A stretch of DNA of 64,000 nt from Catenuloplanes niger (lineage in GTDB: Bacteria; Actinomycetota; Actinomycetes; Mycobacteriales; Micromonosporaceae), in assembly GCF_031458255.1 (NCBI RefSeq), contig NZ_JAVDYC010000001.1:3853001-3917000 (forward strand), written 5' to 3'. A program made the position numbers and the translations under genes. The stretch's first letter is position 1. Each line of letters opens with the position of its first letter. Below, one piece after another: positions 31,216 to 64,000 of this stretch. Below the pieces are notes generated by a model. That model searched no databases, was not told where the DNA came from, and was given only the letters and a program-made list of their open reading frames with translations.

Positions 31216-32496
31216 TCAAACGGCCGGGGCGACCCTCGTCATCGCATTGATGACCCTGTCCATGGCGTCGCCGCCACGCGGGTCGGTCAGGTTGGCCAGC
31301 AGCTTCAGCACGAACCGCATGAGCAGCGGCTGGGGCATGCCGTACCGGGTGGCCATCTTCATGATCTCGGGCCGGCCGATCAGCTTCACGAAGACGCCGC
31401 CGAGCCGGTAGTAGCCGCCGTAGCGCAGCTTCAGCTCCGCCGGGTACGCCTGCAGCGCGCGCTCCCGCTCGGCGCCCTCCGCGCGCGCCAGCGCCTGCGT
31501 GATGATCTCCGCGGCCAGCTCGCCGGACTCCATCGCGTACGCGATGCCCTCGCCGTTGAACGGGTTCACCATGCCGCCCGAGTCGCCGACCAGCAGCATG
31601 CCCCGCGAGTAGTGCGGCGTGCGGTTGAAGCCCATCGGCAGCGCGGCGCCGAGGATCGGGCCGTCCGCGTTCTCCTCGTCCGCGGTGCCCCACTCGGCCG
31701 GCGTGGTGGCCAGCCAGTCCAGCAGCATGTGCCGGTAGTTGGTCTTGCCGTAGCCGGTGGACGAGTTGAGCACGCCGAGACCCACGTTGACCCGGCCGTC
31801 GCCCATCCCGAAGATCCATCCGTACCCGGGGAGCAGCTTGTCCGGATTTTCCCGGGAGCGAAGCTCCAGCCAGGACTCCAGGTAGTCGTCGTCGTGCTTG
31901 ACCGGCGAGTTGTAGTAGCGCCGGACCGCGACGCCCATCGGCCGGTCGTCACGCTTGCGGATGTTCAGCGCGAGCGGGAACCGGCCGGAAACCCCGTCCG
32001 CCGCGACCACCAGCGGCGCGCGGAACTCGACCGGCTCCTTTCCGGGACCGGACTCGGCCGTCACGCCGATGATCCGGCCGTCCTCGGCGAACACCGGACC
32101 GGTCACGTTCGTGCTGGTCCGGACGATCGCGCCGGCCTCGGCCGCGCGCTTCGCGAGCATCTGGTCGAAGTCGAGCCGGGTGCGGGTCAGACCGTAGTTG
32201 GGGAAGCTGGCCAGCTCCGGCCAGTCGAGCTCCAGGCGGACGCCGCCACCGATCACCCGCAGGCCCTTGTTGCGCAGCCAGCCGGCCTCTTCGGAGGTGT
32301 CGACGCCCATCTTGATCAGCTGCTTGGTCGCGCGCGGGGTGAGCCCGTCGCCGCAGACCTTCTCCCGGGGGAACTCGGTCTTCTCGAGCAGCAGGACCCG
32401 AACACCGTGCTGGGCAAGGTGATATGCGGTCGCGGAGCCACCCGGGCCCGCGCCCACGACGATCACGTCGGCCTGTTCGGCCACAACCTGGGTCAC
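31216..32496 (-). CDS. menJ: Geranylgeranyl reductase family (MenJ-like menaquinone reductase)
   Basis: A 426-residue FAD enzyme. The dinucleotide-binding motif VIVVGAGPGG (11-20) and the family stretch KVCGDGLTPRA (46-56) are clear, and LLVGDSGGMVNPFNGEGI is the second FAD motif. In mycobacteria MenJ reduces one double bond of the menaquinone tail; the position between menG and nuo supports that role, but other family members act on archaeal or chlorophyll lipids. GTG 32496 is the preferred start because AGGAGG sits 7 bases upstream; the two ATGs before it (32514, 32502) overlap or precede that site. Confidence 0.85.
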   Translation of the reverse strand: MTQVVAEQADVIVVGAGPGGSATAYHLAQHGVRVLLLEKTEFPREKVCGDGLTPRATKQLIKMGVDTSEEAGWLRNKGLRVIGGGVRLELDWPELASFPNYGLTRTRLDFDQMLAKRAAEAGAIVRTSTNVTGPVFAEDGRIIGVTAESGPGKEPVEFRAPLVVAADGVSGRFPLALNIRKRDDRPMGVAVRRYYNSPVKHDDDYLESWLELRSRENPDKLLPGYGWIFGMGDGRVNVGLGVLNSSTGYGKTNYRHMLLDWLATTPAEWGTADEENADGPILGAALPMGFNRTPHYSRGMLLVGDSGGMVNPFNGEGIAYAMESGELAAEIITQALARAEGAERERALQAYPAELKLRYGGYYRLGGVFVKLIGRPEIMKMATRYGMPQPLLMRFVLKLLANLTDPRGGDAMDRVINAMTRVAPAV

Positions 32497-32510
32497 GGCC
32501 ATACCTCCTC

Positions 32511-33003: not shown

Positions 33004-33696
33004 TCAGGGCTTGGTGGCGCGGTGCAGCGCGACGATGCCGCCGGTCAGGTTGCGCCAGGCCACCGCGGTCCAGCCGGCCTTCCCGATGCGGTCCGCCAGC
33101 GCGGCCTGGTCCGGCCAGGCGCGGATCGACTCGGCGAGGTAGACGTACGCCTCCGGGTTGCTGGAGACCGCGCGCGCCACCGTCGGCAGGGAGCGCATCA
33201 GGTACTGCAGGTAGACGCTCCGGAACGGGCCGTTGACCGGGTGGCTGAACTCGCAGACCACCAGCCGCCCGCCGGGGCGCACCACGCGGGCCAGCTCGGC
33301 CAGCGCACCGTCCACGTCGACCACGTTGCGCAGCGCGAAGGAGATGGTGGCCGCGTCGAACGTCTCGTCCGCGAACGGCAGCGCCAGCGCGTCACCGGCC
33401 AGCAGCGGCACGTCCGGGCGGGCTCGGCGGCCCGCGCGCAGCATGCCGATCGAGAGGTCGAGGCCGACCGCGAACGCGCCGGACCGGCCCAGCTCCAGCG
33501 TGGAGACGCCGGTGCCGGCGCCCACGTCGAGCACCCGCTGGCCCAGCTTGAGTTGCAGCGCGTCCCGCGTGGCCCGGCGCCAGCCACGGTCCTGCCCGAA
33601 GGAGAGCACCGTGTTGGTCAGGTCGTAGTTACGCGCCACGCCGTCGAACATCGAGGCGACCTCGTGGGGCTGCTTGTCCAAGTCTGCGCGGCTCAC
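33004..33696 (-). CDS. menG: Demethylmenaquinone methyltransferase
   Basis: A 230-residue class I SAM-dependent methyltransferase of the UbiE/MenG family, which methylates demethylmenaquinone in the last ring step. The N-terminal family segment [20 protein letters not shown] leads into motif I DVGAGTG (57-63), then GDALALPF and the [10 protein letters not shown] segment typical of UbiE/MenG. The start is uncertain: GTG 33696 gives a standard length, while ATG 33762 in the same frame would add 22 residues encoded by a terminator-like hairpin. It lies in a block with menJ-like, nuo and polyprenyl synthase genes. Confidence 0.93.
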
Positions 33697-35540: not shown

Positions 35541-36725
35541 TCAGTGTGCCTCGACGAGTGGCAACGACCGGCCGGCGCCGCCGCCGGGCAGCGCGATCGA
35601 CGAGAAGTGCGAGACCACCCGGTCGTCCGTCGGGTCCTCCGCCGGCGTCCGGTGCACGGCCAGGTGGCGGTAGAGCGTGTCGCGCTGCGCCGGGACGCGG
35701 CCGGCCGACCGGATCATCCAGATCAGGTCGTGCAGGTTCGACCGGTGCCGGGCGCCGGCCGAGGAGATCACGTTCTCCTCCAGCATGATCGAGCCCAGGT
35801 CGTCCACGCCCATGTGCAGCGACAGCTGGCCGACCTCCTTGCCCGTGGTCAGCCAGGACGCCTGCAGGTGGTCCACGTTGTGGAAGAACAGCCGGGACAT
35901 CGCGACGAACCGCAGGTACTCCAGCGTGGTGGCCTGGGTGCGGCCCTTGAGGTGGTTGTTCTCCGGCTGGTAGGTCCACGGGATGAACGCCCGGAAACCG
36001 CCGGTGCGGTCCTGCACGTCCCGGATCATGGCGATGTGCTCCACCCGCTCCGCGTGCGTCTCGCCGGTGCCCATCATCATGGTCGCGGTCGACTCGATGC
36101 CGTGCCGGTGCGCGGTCTCCATGACCTCCAGCCAGCGCGCGCCGGACTCCTTGAGCGGCGCGATCGCCTTGCGCGGCCGCTCCGGCAGCATCTCCGCGCC
36201 GGCGCCGGCGATCGAGTCCAGCCCGGCCGCCTTGATCCGCAGGATCGCGTCCTCGATCGAGATGCCGTCGACCTTCGCCATGTGCAGGATCTCGGACGGG
36301 CCGATCGAGTGGATCACCAGCTGCGGGTACGCCGCCTTGACCGAGGAGAACAGCTCCTCGTAGTAGGCAGTGCCGTAGTCCGGGTGGTGACCGCCCTGCA
36401 ACATCACCTGGGTGGCGCCCAGGTCGACGGCCTCGCCGCACCGGCGGAGGATCTCCTCCATCGGGTGCGACCAGCCCTCCTTGTGCTTCGGCGCGCGGAA
36501 GAACGCGCAGAACTTGCACGCGGTCACGCAGACGTTGGTGTAGTTGATGTTGCGATCGATCAGGTAGGTGACGATCCCGTCCGGGTAGCGTCGCCGGCGC
36601 ACCGCGTCCGCGGCCTCGCCCAGCGCGTGCAGCGGAGCGTCGGTGTAGATGAGCAGCGCCTCCTCGGGCGTGATCCGCCCACCGTCCGCGCCACGCTGCA
36701 GGATGTCGTCGATCTCCCTGTTCAC
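35541..36725 (-). CDS. mqnC: Cyclic dehypoxanthinyl futalosine synthase
   Basis: A 394-residue radical SAM enzyme of the futalosine menaquinone pathway. The cluster motif is CVTACKFC (Cys66, Cys70, Cys73), preceded by IDRNINYTNV. Family landmarks include MLQGGHHPDYGTAYYE, GAGAEMLPERPRKAIAP, MMGTGETHAERVEHI and FIPWTYQPENNHLKG. It closes the carbocycle of dehypoxanthine futalosine. The GTG at 36725 has GGGG 5 bases upstream; a GTG two codons earlier is possible. Divergent from a SNF2 helicase gene (99-bp gap), and followed by a strong terminator. Confidence 0.96.
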   Translation of the reverse strand: MNREIDDILQRGADGGRITPEEALLIYTDAPLHALGEAADAVRRRRYPDGIVTYLIDRNINYTNVCVTACKFCAFFRAPKHKEGWSHPMEEILRRCGEAVDLGATQVMLQGGHHPDYGTAYYEELFSSVKAAYPQLVIHSIGPSEILHMAKVDGISIEDAILRIKAAGLDSIAGAGAEMLPERPRKAIAPLKESGARWLEVMETAHRHGIESTATMMMGTGETHAERVEHIAMIRDVQDRTGGFRAFIPWTYQPENNHLKGRTQATTLEYLRFVAMSRLFFHNVDHLQASWLTTGKEVGQLSLHMGVDDLGSIMLEENVISSAGARHRSNLHDLIWMIRSAGRVPAQRDTLYRHLAVHRTPAEDPTDDRVVSHFSSIALPGGGAGRSLPLVEAH

Positions 36726-36824
36726 CGTCACCCCACGAGCGTACGTCCATCGGGTCACGGCCTGCCGCGTCCCAGGTCACCATGCCGGTATCGTCGGACG
36801 GTCCACGCGGAGGAGATAAAGCGC

Positions 36825-41578: not shown

Positions 41579-41596
41579 CCGGGCGGGGCCGGTCAG
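41575..41596. terminator. Hairpin built across two convergent stop codons
   Basis: Stem CTGACCGG (41575-41582) and CCGGTCAG (41589-41596) with loop GCGGGG. The stem contains both the aldo/keto reductase stop (41576-41578) and the paaE stop (41593-41595, minus strand). Confidence 0.65.
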
Positions 41597-42672
41597 GCGT
41601 CGTAGTCGACCGTGACGTCCGGGGTGAGCGGGACGGACTGGCAGGTGAGGACGTACCCGGCGGCGACGTCGTCGGGCTCCAGCGCGTAGTTGCGGGCCAT
41701 CGCCACCTCGCCGGTGACCACCCGGGCCCGGCAGGTCGCGCACACGCCGCCCTTGCAGGCGTAGGGCAGCTCGGCGCGGACGGCCAGCGCCGCGTCCAGC
41801 ACCCGGCCGTCGCGCGGCATGGTGGTGCGGGACTCCCGGCCGTCCAGCCGCACGGTCAGCGCGACGTCGTCCGCGTTGCCGACCGGCGGCGTGGGGACCG
41901 GGACCGGGCCGGCGTAGAACAGCTCCGTGTGCACGGCCGGCGCGCCGCGCGAGCGCAGCAACTCCTCGGCCGTCTCGACCAGCGCGGCCGGGCCGCACAG
42001 GAACCACTCGTCGACGCCGGCCGGGACCGCGGTGTCCAGCAGCAGCGCCAGGCGATCCCGGTCGAGGCGGCCGGAGAGCGCGGGCGACAGGCCGGGCTCG
42101 CGGGACAGCACGTGCAGGATCTGCAGGCGGGACGGGTACCGGTCCTTCAGCGCGCCCAGCTCGTCGGCGAACATCACGCTCGCGGCCGCCCGGTTGCCGT
42201 AGAGCAGCGTGAACGTGCTGTGCGGCTCGGTGGCGAGCGCGGTGGCGACCAGGCTCAGCACCGGCGTGATGCCGGAACCGGCCACGATCGCGCCGTACCG
42301 CCGGGTGCGCAGCGGGTCGAGGTCGGTGGTGAACGTGCCGAGCGGGGGCAGCACCTCCAGCGTGGTCCCGGCGCGCAGGCCCCGGACGCCCTGACTGCTG
42401 AACGCGCCGCCCGGCACCTCCTTGACGCCGATCCGGATCAGCCCGGTCCGGTCGAGCTCCCGTGGGGTGGAGCAGATCGAGTAGGAGCGGCGGACGGCCG
42501 GGGCGTAGCGCACGGTCAGGTGCTGGCCCGGCCGGAACGCGAACTCCGCGCGCAGCTCCGGCGGGACCGCGAACGTGATCGTCACCGCCTCCGCGGTCAG
42601 CCGCTCGACGCGGTCCACCGGCAGCGGGTGCCAGACCGGGCGGCGGCGCGCCACCCGTACCACCGAGGTCAT
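41593..42672 (-). CDS. paaE: Phenylacetyl-CoA epoxidase, reductase subunit
   Basis: A 359-residue electron-transfer subunit. The FAD-binding ferredoxin-reductase domain has RSYSICSTP and GVRGLRAGTTLEVLPPLGTF, then the NADPH part GSGITPVLSL and FLCGPAALVETAEELL. The C-terminal plant-type [2Fe-2S] ferredoxin has CKGGVCATC plus a distal Cys in LTCQS. It feeds electrons to the PaaA di-iron site. ATG 42672 is preferred over ATG 42678 because AAGGAG sits 8 bases upstream. Last gene of paaABCDE. Confidence 0.95.
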   Translation of the reverse strand: MTSVVRVARRRPVWHPLPVDRVERLTAEAVTITFAVPPELRAEFAFRPGQHLTVRYAPAVRRSYSICSTPRELDRTGLIRIGVKEVPGGAFSSQGVRGLRAGTTLEVLPPLGTFTTDLDPLRTRRYGAIVAGSGITPVLSLVATALATEPHSTFTLLYGNRAAASVMFADELGALKDRYPSRLQILHVLSREPGLSPALSGRLDRDRLALLLDTAVPAGVDEWFLCGPAALVETAEELLRSRGAPAVHTELFYAGPVPVPTPPVGNADDVALTVRLDGRESRTTMPRDGRVLDAALAVRAELPYACKGGVCATCRARVVTGEVAMARNYALEPDDVAAGYVLTCQSVPLTPDVTVDYDA

Positions 42673-42674
42673 GG

Positions 42675-43127
42675 TCATCGCTCCTTGACCCGGGGAAACG
42701 GCTCGGCGCAGGCCCGGCAGCGCCACAGCGAGGTGCACGCGGTGGAGCCGAACCGGCTCAGTTCCTCCGTCTCCGGCGAGCCGCACCGCGGGCAGCGCAC
42801 CGAGATGGTCAGCAGCACCGGGCGCGGCGGCGCGACACCGGCCTCGGCCAGCTTGCGGCGCCCGGCCTCGCTGATCCACTCCGTGCTCCACGGCGGGTTC
42901 AGCCGGGTCTCGACCACCGCGTCCGGGAAGCCCGCACCGGCCAGCGCGGCCCGGACGTCGTCCCGGATCACCGACACCGCGGGGCAGCCGGTGTAGGTGG
43001 GGGTGATCGTCACGGTGACTCGGCCGTCCCGCTCCTCGACCGCGCGCAGGATGCCCAGCTCCGCGATGGTCACGAACGGCAGCTCCGGGTCGACGACCCC
43101 GGCGGCCACGGTCTCGGCCGGGGTCAC
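42675..43127 (-). CDS. paaD: Phenylacetyl-CoA epoxidase assembly protein PaaD
   Basis: A 150-residue DUF59/SUF-type protein. The N-terminal part has VVDPELPFVTIAELGIL and TPTYTGCPA; the C-terminal zinc-like part has CPRCGSPETEELSRFGSTACTSLWRC. It is thought to help maturation of the epoxidase metal or iron-sulfur centres. The GTG start at 43127 overlaps the paaC stop (GTGA). Confidence 0.94.
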   Translation of the reverse strand: MTPAETVAAGVVDPELPFVTIAELGILRAVEERDGRVTVTITPTYTGCPAVSVIRDDVRAALAGAGFPDAVVETRLNPPWSTEWISEAGRRKLAEAGVAPPRPVLLTISVRCPRCGSPETEELSRFGSTACTSLWRCRACAEPFPRVKER

Positions 43128-43864
43128 CAGCGTGCTCCCGGGTGTGCGCGGTGCAGCGCCTGCATCTCGTCGAGCAGGCCGGTGAGGTGCGCGGTGTGCC
43201 GCCCGGCCCGGCCGTCCAGCGCCGCCGGGGCCTCGACACCGGCCGGGATCCGCAGCGTGGCCGTGGTCAGCGTGGCCTCGACGATCCCGGCCCACTCCGC
43301 GGCCGTCGGGTCGCCCGCGACGCCCGGCAGTCGCCGCGCGACCGGATCGGGGACGAAGAGCTCCCGGGCGTACGGCCAGAGCCCGTCGACCGCGTCCTGC
43401 ATGCGCCGGTGCGACTCCTCGGTGCCGTCGCCCAGCCGGATCGTCCACTGTGCCGCGTGGTCGAGGTGGTACGCGGTCTCCAGCCCGGCCGTGGCCGCGA
43501 TCCCGGCGAGCCGCTCGTCCCGCGACTCCGCCAGGCGGGCGTAGAGCGGGCGCTGCCAGGCCGCGAGGAACAGCAGCTTGGCGACGGTTACCGCGAAGTC
43601 CCCGTTGGGCAGCTCGACCAGCACGTGGTTGCGGAACTCCGCCGGGCCGCGCAGGTACGCCAGCGTGTCCTCGTCACCGTCGCCGGTCAGCTCCGCCGCG
43701 TAGGACAGCAGCAGCCGGGCCGCGCCGAGCTGGTCGAGCGCGATGTTGGCCAGCGCCACGTCCTCCTCCATCTCGGGGCTCCCGGCGTAGAGCTCCCCGA
43801 GCCGCTGGGCCGCGATCAGCGCGTCGTCGCCCAGCCCCAGCGCGTAGCGGGCCACGTCGTTCAC
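43124..43864 (-). CDS. paaC: Phenylacetyl-CoA epoxidase subunit PaaC
   Basis: A 246-residue helical structural subunit, a ferritin-like partner of PaaA without the full di-iron ligand set. Landmarks are ALGLGDDALIAAQRLGELY, EEDVALANIALDQLGAARLLL and AYLRGPAEFRNHVLVELPNGDFA. GTG 43864 overlaps the paaB stop and its own stop overlaps paaD, both as GTGA. Confidence 0.95.
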   Translation of the reverse strand: MNDVARYALGLGDDALIAAQRLGELYAGSPEMEEDVALANIALDQLGAARLLLSYAAELTGDGDEDTLAYLRGPAEFRNHVLVELPNGDFAVTVAKLLFLAAWQRPLYARLAESRDERLAGIAATAGLETAYHLDHAAQWTIRLGDGTEESHRRMQDAVDGLWPYARELFVPDPVARRLPGVAGDPTAAEWAGIVEATLTTATLRIPAGVEAPAALDGRAGRHTAHLTGLLDEMQALHRAHPGARW

Positions 43865-44130
43865 AGGTGCGGCGCTCCGTCCGGGACCGAGTAGTACGTG
43901 GGATGGCGGTAGGGCTTGTCCGGCGCCGGGTCCACCTCGTCCCCGGACGCGACGATCGCGGTGCTCGGGACGACCCAGACGGAGACGCCCTCCTGCCGCC
44001 GGGTGTAGAGGTCGCGGGCGTTGCGCAGCGCCATCGCGGCGTCCGGCGCGTGCAGGCTGCCGGCGTGCGTGTGCGACAGCCCGCGCCGCGGGCGCACGAA
44101 CACCTCCCACAGCGGCCAGCCCTCGCTCAC
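43861..44130 (-). CDS. paaB: Phenylacetyl-CoA epoxidase subunit PaaB
   Basis: An 89-residue small subunit. The core [20 protein letters not shown] and [21 protein letters not shown] are diagnostic. It bridges PaaAC units in the known complex. The GTG at 44130 overlaps the paaA stop (GTGA). Confidence 0.95.
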
Positions 44131-45065
44131 CGCGCCTGCTTCCGGGCGTAGGCCGCGGCCGCCTCGCGGACCCAGGCACCGTCGTCGTGCGCCGCGCGGC
44201 GGTGCGCCATCCGCTCCGCGTTGCACGGACCGTCGCCGTTGATCACCCGGGTCAGCTCGTCGAAGTCCGGCGGCGTGAAGTCGTGGGCACCGCGGTCCGG
44301 GTTCCAGCGCAGGCCGTCGTCGGGGATGCGCAGGCCGAGCACCGCCGCCTGCGGCACGCACATGTCCACGAAGCGCTGGCGCAGCTCGTCGTTGGAGAAC
44401 CGCTTGATCTTCCACTGGATCGAGCGGGCGGAGTGCGTCGATTCCGCGTCCGGCGGGCCGAACATCGCCAGCGACGGGTACCACCACCGGTCGAGCGCGT
44501 CCTGCGCCATCGCGTGCTGGGCCGCGGTGCCGTGCGCCAGCGTGTGCAGCAGCTCGTAGCCCTGGCGCTGGTGGAACGACTCCTCCTTGCAGATGCGGAC
44601 CATGGCCCGTGCGTACGGCCCGTAGGAGCAACGGCAGAGCGGCACCTGGTTGACGATCGCGGCACCGTCCACCAGCCAGCCGATCGCGCCGATGTCGGCC
44701 CAGCTCAACGTGGGGTAGTTGAAGATCGAGCTGTACTTCTGCCGCTTGGTCAGCAGCGCGTCGACCAGCTCGTCGCGGGTGATGCCGAGCGTCTCGGCGG
44801 CGGCGTAGAGGTAGAGCCCGTGGCCGGCCTCGTCCTGCACCTTCGCCAGCAGGATGGCCTTGCGCTTCAGGCTCGGCGCCCGGGTGATCCAGGAGCCCTC
44901 CGGCTGCATGCCGATGATCTCGGAGTGGGCGTGCTGGGCGATCTGGCGGATCAGCCCCTTCCGGTACGCCTCCGGCATCCAGTCGGCCGGCTCGACCTTT
45001 TCCTCGGCCGCGACCAGGGCGTCGAAGCGTTCCACACGGGTCAGCTCATCGATGCCGTCCATCAT
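44127..45065 (-). CDS. paaA: Phenylacetyl-CoA epoxidase catalytic subunit PaaA
   Basis: A 312-residue di-iron oxygenase subunit that epoxidises the ring of phenylacetyl-CoA. Ligand-bearing helices are visible: [22 protein letters not shown] and the [14 protein letters not shown] helix with EESFH. The ATG at 45065 is followed directly by a second ATG (45062), and the ribosome site is weak. First gene of a compact five-gene operon. Genes for the later steps (paaG, paaZ, paaK) are not in this window. Confidence 0.95.
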
Positions 45066-46094: not shown

Positions 46095-46991
<897 letters not shown>

Positions 46992-62849: not shown

Positions 62850-63113
62850 TCAGCCCTTCGCGGCCGGCTCTTCCTCTTCGCCCGCCAGCGCGGCACGGAG
62901 GCGGGCGCGCTCGGCCTTGCGCCGGTCCGCGCGGGCGGCCAACTCGGTCGCCATCTCGTCACGCCACTGGCCGAGCAGGAAGTACGACGCGACCGCGGAG
63001 AGCAGCAACGCCACGATCAGCTTGATGAAGATGTCCGTGTCGACGAACCACATCGCCGCCAGGAACGCCAGGAAGAGACCGATCCGGCCGGCCGTGTACT
63101 TGATCGCGGCCAC
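62850..63113 (-). CDS. Small membrane protein, DUF4229-like
   Basis: An 87-residue protein with two hydrophobic helices (GRIGLFLAFLAAMWFV and FIKLIVALLLSAVASYFLL) and a charged C-terminal tail (RADRRKAERARLRAAL). The size and pattern match DUF4229. I recall such genes next to mqnE in Streptomyces menaquinone clusters, which fits the MqnE-like gene 49 bp upstream. GTG at 63113. Function unknown. Confidence 0.7.
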   Translation of the reverse strand: MAAIKYTAGRIGLFLAFLAAMWFVDTDIFIKLIVALLLSAVASYFLLGQWRDEMATELAARADRRKAERARLRAALAGEEEEPAAKG

Positions 63114-63162: not shown

Positions 63163-63828
63163 TCAGGCCCAGACCTTCTGCGGTACGGCCCGGCGGTCCG
63201 CCAGCGGGGCCGGCGCGTCGTACTCGCGGACCACGCCGTAGGACGCGTCCCGCTCGACCGGCCGCAGCCCGGCGTCCCAGATCAGCTCCAGCAGCTCCTG
63301 GCCCGGGTCCAGCTCGACCGCGCGCTTGTCCGCGTTGCGCCACCGCTGCTCCGGAGTCCCCTCCTCGTCCCGCTCGCCGGACGGGATGCCGGCCAGATCG
63401 TCCGCGCCGTAGTTGAGCAACAACTGGACCAGCGCCGGGCCGTGCGAGGCGTAGTCGGCGGTGAGGTGGACGGCCGGGTCGAGCAGCAGCCGGGCGACCG
63501 CGAACGTGCGGAGCGCCTCGGCGGGCGCACCGTCCTCTTTGACGAGCGTGACGGACGGCGGCCGAAGATCTTCACGGAGATTTAGCACCGCGTCCACCAG
63601 GTGCGCGGCCGGGTCCTCGGCGCGGCCGTAGGCGATCTCACCCGCGTCGATGGACCGATCGGCGGCGAACGTCACCCGGTCGGCGTACGACTCGGTCCGG
63701 CGGTGGTGGGCCAACCTGCCCAGCCAGGCCAGCTCGTCCGTGCCGAAGAGGACAATTCCGTCATCTCGGGTGAGCCGTTCCCCGGCGTAGACCTTCTGCT
63801 CCAGCGTGCGCTTCAGCCCGGAATCCAT
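63163..63828 (-). CDS. MqnE-like protein lacking the radical-SAM core
   Basis: A 221-residue protein with an MqnE-type N-terminus (MDSGLKRTLEQKVYAGERLT, then ELAWLGRLAHH) and C-terminus (AEALRTFAVARLLLD, then LIWDAGLRPVER and REYDAP), as in aminofutalosine synthase. Between them, ADRVTFAADRSIDAG aligns with the strand before the cluster loop, and IAYGRAEDPAAHLVDAVLNL aligns with a late barrel segment. About 170 residues including CxxxCxxC are missing, and the protein contains no cysteine. The frame is intact and codon use is normal, so it is likely expressed. It cannot do the radical-SAM reaction; it may be a repurposed paralog or a relic. ATG 63828. Confidence 0.75.
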   Translation of the reverse strand: MDSGLKRTLEQKVYAGERLTRDDGIVLFGTDELAWLGRLAHHRRTESYADRVTFAADRSIDAGEIAYGRAEDPAAHLVDAVLNLREDLRPPSVTLVKEDGAPAEALRTFAVARLLLDPAVHLTADYASHGPALVQLLLNYGADDLAGIPSGERDEEGTPEQRWRNADKRAVELDPGQELLELIWDAGLRPVERDASYGVVREYDAPAPLADRRAVPQKVWA

Positions 63829-64000
63829 GCTCAGAGCGTACGTGGCCGGAATCTGAACGACCGGCCGGCTGCAACGGATCTCACGTCGGGTCGCCGGGCT
63901 CAACTTTCCGATTTATCCGTCCAAATCGCTCGAATCTCAGGGAGTTCACAGCGTCGGATCGTCATTGACCGATCGACACCCTGTGGGAGTGTGAGGTACA
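63829..64000. other. Intergenic region at the right edge
   Basis: No gene starts within these 172 bp. It holds the promoter of the MqnE-like gene on the minus strand and possibly one for a gene beyond the edge on the plus strand (TTGACC at 63965-63970, no clear -10 partner). Confidence 0.35.

Follow-up and report, generated by a model that had tools for sequence, protein, structure and literature searches.

A MqnE orthologue without its radical-SAM core in Catenuloplanes niger, and the loss of full-length MqnE in several lineages of the Micromonosporaceae

In this work we consider a gene of Catenuloplanes niger whose two ends are those of mqnE, and whose middle, where the cluster-binding loop of the radical-SAM enzyme should be encoded, is absent. 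The futalosine pathway of menaquinone synthesis is regarded as an antibacterial target, and MqnE carries out its least ordinary reaction; the locus thus raises the question of what makes aminofutalosine in this bacterium, and of why a remnant of the enzyme is kept. The window, by which we mean the whole stretch of 64,000 nucleotides analysed (positions 3853001-3917000), comes from a host genome of 9.74 Mb that is assembled in one contig and is 99.97% complete.

A core-less mqnE gene and its neighbourhood

The gene lies at 63163..63828 on the minus strand and encodes a protein of 221 residues plus stop (P0001), identified as a core-less MqnE orthologue from its open reading frame and from NCBIfam, PDB and genome profile matches. 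A sequence-only reading of this DNA had described a clean frame of this length, position and strand with no cysteine, MqnE-like at both ends and lacking the central CxxxCxxC part, and all of this was borne out. A profile search, by which the relationship to MqnE was put to the test, returned MqnE (TIGR03700) as the top NCBIfam match, in two pieces and at 80.1 bits, the cut-off being 434.55; the best stretch places residues 101-198 on profile positions 260-349, and in the whole-genome search the pieces matched are positions 2-59 and 260-349 of 351. The score for MqnC (TIGR03699), 51.4 bits, is lower. The Radical_SAM domain PF04055 is not among the Pfam matches of P0001 at a maximum E of 10, in a scan whose HMMER filters drop most matches above about 0.1, and the CofH/MqnC C-terminal region PF19288 reaches 17.1 bits (E 0.0051), under its gathering cut-off of 27 bits.

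Full-length MqnE in relatives has 389 residues, and alignment with it places the main gap of P0001 from about residue 60 to about residue 214, removing the CxxxCxxC loop (66-73). The retained N-terminal part (63652..63828, minus strand; residues 1-59) consists, by alignments and model, of three helices and the first strand. It is joined through an approximate breakpoint (63640..63651, minus strand; residues ~60-63), at which the alignments lack MqnE residues ~60-214, to a C-terminal part (63166..63639, minus strand; residues 64-221) that corresponds to the rest of MqnE, beginning at about residue 215 and interrupted by another gap and by a variable insert, and that closes in an RRxxPQ tail (63166..63201, minus strand). 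As a candidate member of the MqnE family, P0001 therefore has the N- and C-terminal homology and the gene neighbourhood, and falls short of the family cut-off and of the CxxxCxxC ligands. Having no cysteine, it would bind no [4Fe-4S] cluster and, judged from its residues, cannot by itself be an aminofutalosine synthase or carry out radical-SAM chemistry alone. Six bases before the ATG stands TACGCT (63835..63840, minus strand), read by eye as a possible -10 element of a leaderless transcript. Inspected in the same way, five Catenuloplanes and two g31 stubs (L001, L007, L008, L009, L010, L156 and L167) have TACGCT or TAGGCT at this distance and no clear ribosome-binding stretch, resembling leaderless transcripts, and G-rich stretches occur in several other stubs and in intact mqnE.

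The predicted structure was compared with MqnE, as the earlier reading had proposed. The AlphaFold model of P0001, built from a 24-row alignment that included full-length forms, has a pLDDT of 84.8 and a pTM of 0.82, and that of a 167-residue stub, built from an alignment of 16 stubs only, a pLDDT of 88.2 and a pTM of 0.79, values to be read with the caution that AlphaFold may simply reproduce a fold known from the parent protein. The best PDB match of both models is MqnE (E 1.0e-10 for P0001 and 1.6e-6 for the 167-residue stub). For the shorter model the TM-score is low (0.43-0.46), and the match, as far as a model can show, indicates homology and no new fold. In direct alignment, PDB MqnE 6xi9 covers residues 8-60 and 103-204 of P0001, and Pedobacter MqnE is its sole solved relative with a convincing E-value (2.7e-12).

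The next gene downstream by gene order encodes a small DUF4229 protein (62850..63113, minus strand; PF14012, 54.2 bits), the neighbour that had been anticipated. Across 14 mqnE-bearing stretches, comprising 3 intact and 11 eroded or divergent mqnE genes, an upstream divergently oriented gene is common to 13, one ABC-transporter ATPase gene to 12 and the DUF4229 gene to 11, with the strongest departures in G038, G008 and G034. Because it sits in the gene neighbourhood of its relatives' intact mqnE, P0001 is an mqnE orthologue and not a paralogue.

The futalosine pathway in the host and the source of aminofutalosine

Searched with both protein and profile, the one-contig host genome contains no complete mqnE above the TIGR03700 cut-off; its only responders are MqnC, FbiC and the stub, and the other four genomes of the genus likewise have no full MqnE above the cut-off. 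The earlier expectation that a real mqnE should exist elsewhere is thereby refuted for the host genome, within the sensitivity of TIGR03700. The idea that P0001 is a spare copy accompanying a complete gene, which the intactness of the rest of the pathway would favour, runs against both searches and is to our minds barely credible.

Two further members of the pathway lie in the window, as had been noted: MqnC, the cyclic dehypoxanthinyl futalosine synthase (35541..36731, minus strand; TIGR03699, 474 bits, cut-off 428.1), and a PF02621-family protein (46143..46991, plus strand; Pfam) that is assigned to MqnA over MqnD by position, one of two PF02621 proteins of the genome assigned to MqnA and MqnD in this way. 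Also in the window are a demethylmenaquinone methyltransferase (33004..33681, minus strand; NF001241, 374.2 bits, cut-off 327) and a MenJ-like protein of the geranylgeranyl-reductase family (31216..32502, minus strand; 229 bits, under the MenJ cut-off of 700). Genome-wide, MqnB, MqnP, a menaquinone UbiD-type decarboxylase, a UbiX-type protein, the methyltransferase and MqnC exceed their cut-offs, with mqnB, mqnD and late menaquinone genes mapping outside the window. Beside mqnA, at 41593-45065, lie a PaaA/PaaC-family protein (Pfam) and neighbours resembling the rest of a phenylacetyl-CoA oxygenase set; a PaaA/PaaC-type set also adjoins mqnA in five genomes from other genera whose mqnE is eroded or divergent (G005, G024, G035, G038 and G079), the intact genomes having been read over shorter stretches.

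In a first sample of 151 genomes (the host and 150 relatives, 91 of them within the family), at least two PF02621 matches were found in 87 of the 91 family genomes (the exceptions being G006, G009, G041 and G065) and in every one of the 20 genomes whose MqnE is eroded or divergent. The data do not support a switch to the MenD pathway, MenD passing its cut-off in 0/91 family genomes (43/151 overall), nor a bypass of MqnB, which passes in 19 of the 20 eroded or divergent genomes. In the exception, G034 of g31, mqnB is found in two pieces in different frames (G034:C1:3917271-3917883, L248), and the adjoining mqnD is normal. In its account of the family, PMC6113628 describes the Micromonosporaceae, in which it places Catenuloplanes, with menaquinones of the MK-9 and MK-10 series, and a passage of PMC3569393 gives MK-9(H4) as the menaquinone of Actinoplanes missouriensis. 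From these family menaquinones and the futalosine enzymes kept, menaquinone is very probably made in the Catenuloplanes host, MqnE being the step not found.

A shared radical-SAM replacement was sought among the 72 PF04055 matches in four stub genomes (G000, G005, G008 and G038), 69 of which were compared, the three omitted being the CofG halves of FbiC. Ten families are common to all four, which from their motifs we take to be MiaB, RimO, MqnC, MoaA, HemW, a TIGR03960-like family, BioB, LipA, RlmN and a Rv2578c-like family. These common families look like housekeeping types, and no replacement was recognised among them. One family with weak PF04055 scores, presumably KamA-like, is present in G005, G008 and G038 and was not seen in G000, where a weak scorer may be missed. 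No family was common to all among the further PF04055 matches read (6 of 15 in G052, 5 of 13 in G068 and 3 of 22 in G077), nor did the stretches read beside mqnB/mqnD or mqnE hold a gene specific to eroded genomes. A literature search, mostly outside subscription journals, found no report of MqnE loss or replacement in actinobacteria; a replacement for MqnD has been predicted, and none for MqnE is named in the corresponding passages of that paper (PMC4746308).

Among CofH-family radical-SAM proteins, only MqnC was found in each of the four stub genomes compared; FbiC was found in three, G008 being the exception. With the pathway otherwise complete, MqnC could conceivably supply the radical-SAM core for both reactions, with the MqnE remnant acting as an adaptor that directs it to the MqnA product. 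MqnC is strongly constrained in eroded lineages. Only a single column of it, occupied by V, I or L, consistently separates eroded from intact lineages, and the stubs have mostly lost the loops that intact MqnE share; we consider such an adaptor quite unlikely. Seven intact rows compared with 10-11 eroded rows gave no convergent column in MqnD and one in MqnB, poorly covered MqnB rows having been dropped together with the partial MqnA of four loci. Many positions of MqnA differ, a comparison that is little informative, its intact side being five Catellatospora alone.

Several independent losses of MqnE in the family

Eroded mqnE is found in all five Catenuloplanes genomes, the host included, and in other genera, and is thus not a matter of chance. 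Of the 151 genomes in the first sample 84 have a full MqnE, and the 91 family genomes account for 69 of these. In a wider sample of 335 Micromonosporaceae genomes at least 95% complete, full MqnE is present in 297 and absent from 38. Best E-values, consistent with this tally, assign the latter to Catenuloplanes (g1, 5/5), g12 (4/4), g31 (4/4), 14 genomes of g29 and 5/7 of g32, together with 2/5 of g5 and one each of g2, g35, g21 and g4. The g4 case, G565, is in about 590 contigs and possibly reflects an assembly gap; for it, for 13 other g29 genomes and for G685, G686, G688, G689 and G690, the assignment means absence of an above-cut-off match only. The less complete G061 (82%) and G009 (69%) also gave no match above the cut-off and were not scored as eroded. 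In six genomes (G047, G082, G508, G511, G584 and G645) at least two full MqnE matches each exceed the cut-off; G047 and G082 also have at least four MqnA/MqnD-type matches each, and a second mqn set seems to be present there. In a class-level sample, matches with E no higher than 1e-10 were found in 78 of 296 genomes, and among the matches listed the best per genome lay in an open frame of at least 294 codons in every case except G000.

The 17 stubs read range from 165 to 270 residues and have differing gaps and the same conserved ends. Their lengths are 221-254 residues in Catenuloplanes, 237 in G005, 215 in G038, 216 in G008, 230 in G077, 207-211 in g12 and 165-168 in g31 (which includes G059, 93% complete); the longest, in G068, has 270 residues and still carries CxxxCxxC, with most of the barrel gone. 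Three further forms were kept apart from the stubs in the conservation analysis. G024 (L181) encodes a 355-residue MqnE lacking the 27 residues that bear the CxxxCxxC loop and 7 others, in effect, by its sequence, a putative natural catalytic knock-out. G035 and G079 encode proteins of 408 and 418 residues that keep CxxxCxxC and have 86 and 83 invariant positions changed.

An MqnC tree gives a view that does not depend on mqnE; one of its intact rows, G102, lies outside the family. The split between 20 eroded or divergent and 20 intact rows takes 7 changes on it (bootstrap range 6-8), 3 of which are forced by well-supported branches alone, and a single eroded clade is rejected (p-AU 0.0003). 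In g5, g29 and g32 intact and eroded states are both present. A tree of the MqnE ends needs 3 changes only (2-3 in bootstraps) and joins several stubs, perhaps through long-branch attraction, the stubs being its long branches. Both trees group G077 with Catenuloplanes, and G005 with G035 and G079, and because of this agreement each group may share a first erosion step. MqnE has been lost several times independently; seven losses is our estimate.

Selection on the remnant and its possible role

Estimates of dN/dS for orthologues with the internal gap had been proposed earlier, with relaxed selection as the mark of a pseudogene. Among 10 pairs of Catenuloplanes stubs dN/dS is 0.24-0.40 (NG86) or 0.11-0.21 (YN00), compared with 0.02-0.14 for mqnC of the same species and 0-0.18 for 27 pairs of intact mqnE (both NG86); other eroded or divergent genes give 0.26-0.75 in g12, 0.43-0.52 in g31, 0.33 for the g5 pair and 0.41 for G035-G079 (NG86). 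In all 21 eroded or divergent pairs, amino-acid changes are fewer than in any of 600 neutral simulations, which place the observed base changes at random and ignore context-dependent mutation. Within residues 101-150, four Catenuloplanes pairs show 1-6 changed residues against 5-13 silent codons. Selection on the stubs is purifying and relaxed relative to intact mqnE: the relaxation anticipated is there, but neutrality is not.

What is kept is consistent among lineages. There are 286 positions at which 27 or more of 28 intact MqnE sequences agree. Each of 41 of these is retained by 15 or more of the 17 stubs, 15 lying near the N terminus (WLGxLAHxxR included) and 26 in the C-terminal part, and the two arginines, proline and glutamine of the RRxxPQ tail are kept in all 17. 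The cluster ligands have disappeared, as have most of the positions that do not vary among intact MqnE. KCFWVM and DGSVVEYKITHDAD, common to intact MqnE, are largely lost from the stubs and from the full-length divergent proteins of G035 and G079; stretches of this kind may form the substrate site.

These patterns bear on the proposal that mqnE is a slowly decaying pseudogene, made redundant by another enzyme and shrunk by deletions to a functionless remainder that is still open. Raised dN/dS, deletions that vary among lineages, and a decay-like series from the loop deletion of G024 to the altered full-length proteins of G035 and G079 all fit such a course. Set against it are the simulations, an open frame from conserved start to conserved last residues in 17/17 stubs, the persistence of the same 41 positions and, by eye, a ribosome-binding-like stretch kept in several lineages, and we regard it as unlikely. 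The stubs do not look like plain pseudogenes, given their open frames, fewer changes than simulated, dN/dS below 1 and confident predicted folds. Of the two possibilities first raised, a decaying copy holds as to weaker constraint and lineage-specific deletions but not as to the frame, start and both ends, which are kept; a conserved, non-enzymatic paralogue holds as to conservation (5/5 genus genomes, under purifying selection) and loss of the ligands but not as to paralogy, the gene being an orthologue by neighbourhood with no second copy found.

We therefore favour, at a probability of roughly 0.6, a selected, non-catalytic remnant of MqnE, with aminofutalosine made by a different enzyme that is not homologous to MqnE. 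On this reading mqnE would have been reduced in place to a gene for a cysteine-free protein, and the stub protein would be made. Selection would keep a small folded domain, in which the N-terminal helices and first strand run on into what was once the C-terminal part of the barrel, together with the RRxxPQ tail. This fold and tail would serve a second, non-catalytic role also present in intact MqnE, most likely that of holding a protein partner; a tail and helices that stay conserved when the barrel core goes would fit docking. MqnC would be the first candidate partner, as the only CofH-family protein in all four stub genomes compared. Since the common radical-SAM families look like housekeeping types, the new source of aminofutalosine may be one of them that has gained a further function, or MqnC, or else a protein outside the reach of PF04055.

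The remnant might instead have acquired a function with no connection to menaquinone, to which the loss of the intact MqnE loops while other positions and the tail stay, and the distance of about 26 kb between mqnC and the stub in the window, would lend themselves; the same ends are, however, kept in several separate lineages, which a role already present in intact MqnE explains more easily, and we hold a new role to be very unlikely. Counting against the selected remnant are its weaker selection than that of intact mqnE, up to the 0.75 of g12, as slow decay would give, the 3 changes of the MqnE-ends tree, the CxxxCxxC kept in G068, and a replacement enzyme that was not found. More tentatively, and at somewhat less than even odds, a second aminofutalosine synthase outside the CofH family may have freed MqnE from catalysis several times in Micromonosporaceae, leaving behind a non-catalytic remnant that partners the menaquinone enzymes still present, and possibly the new synthase as well.

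Retention of the other steps without MqnE implies that aminofutalosine is made either by a new enzyme or by a known one that has acquired the ability. Across the natural series of intact, loop-deleted, half-sized and 165-residue forms, the residues of catalysis can be told apart from those retained on other grounds, which points to a second function of MqnE.

Compared with known systems, P0001 resembles MqnE (TIGR03700; PDB 6xi9, 6xig) in both sequence ends, in neighbourhood and in its best structural match, and differs from it in having 221 rather than 389 residues, neither CxxxCxxC nor any cysteine, and a score far under the family cut-off. With MqnC (TIGR03699) and CofH it shares the wider family and a weaker match of the C-terminal part; it scores lower for MqnC than for MqnE, and the same genome has a separate, intact MqnC. 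Pseudoenzymes are proteins in which catalytic residues have been lost and the remaining protein is selected, and our literature search found no such case described for MqnE. The stubs are like pseudoenzymes derived from metabolic enzymes in their lost catalytic residues and in the selection on the rest, and differ from them in that the cluster-binding part of the barrel has gone, repeatedly, while the reaction it carried out still seems to be required.
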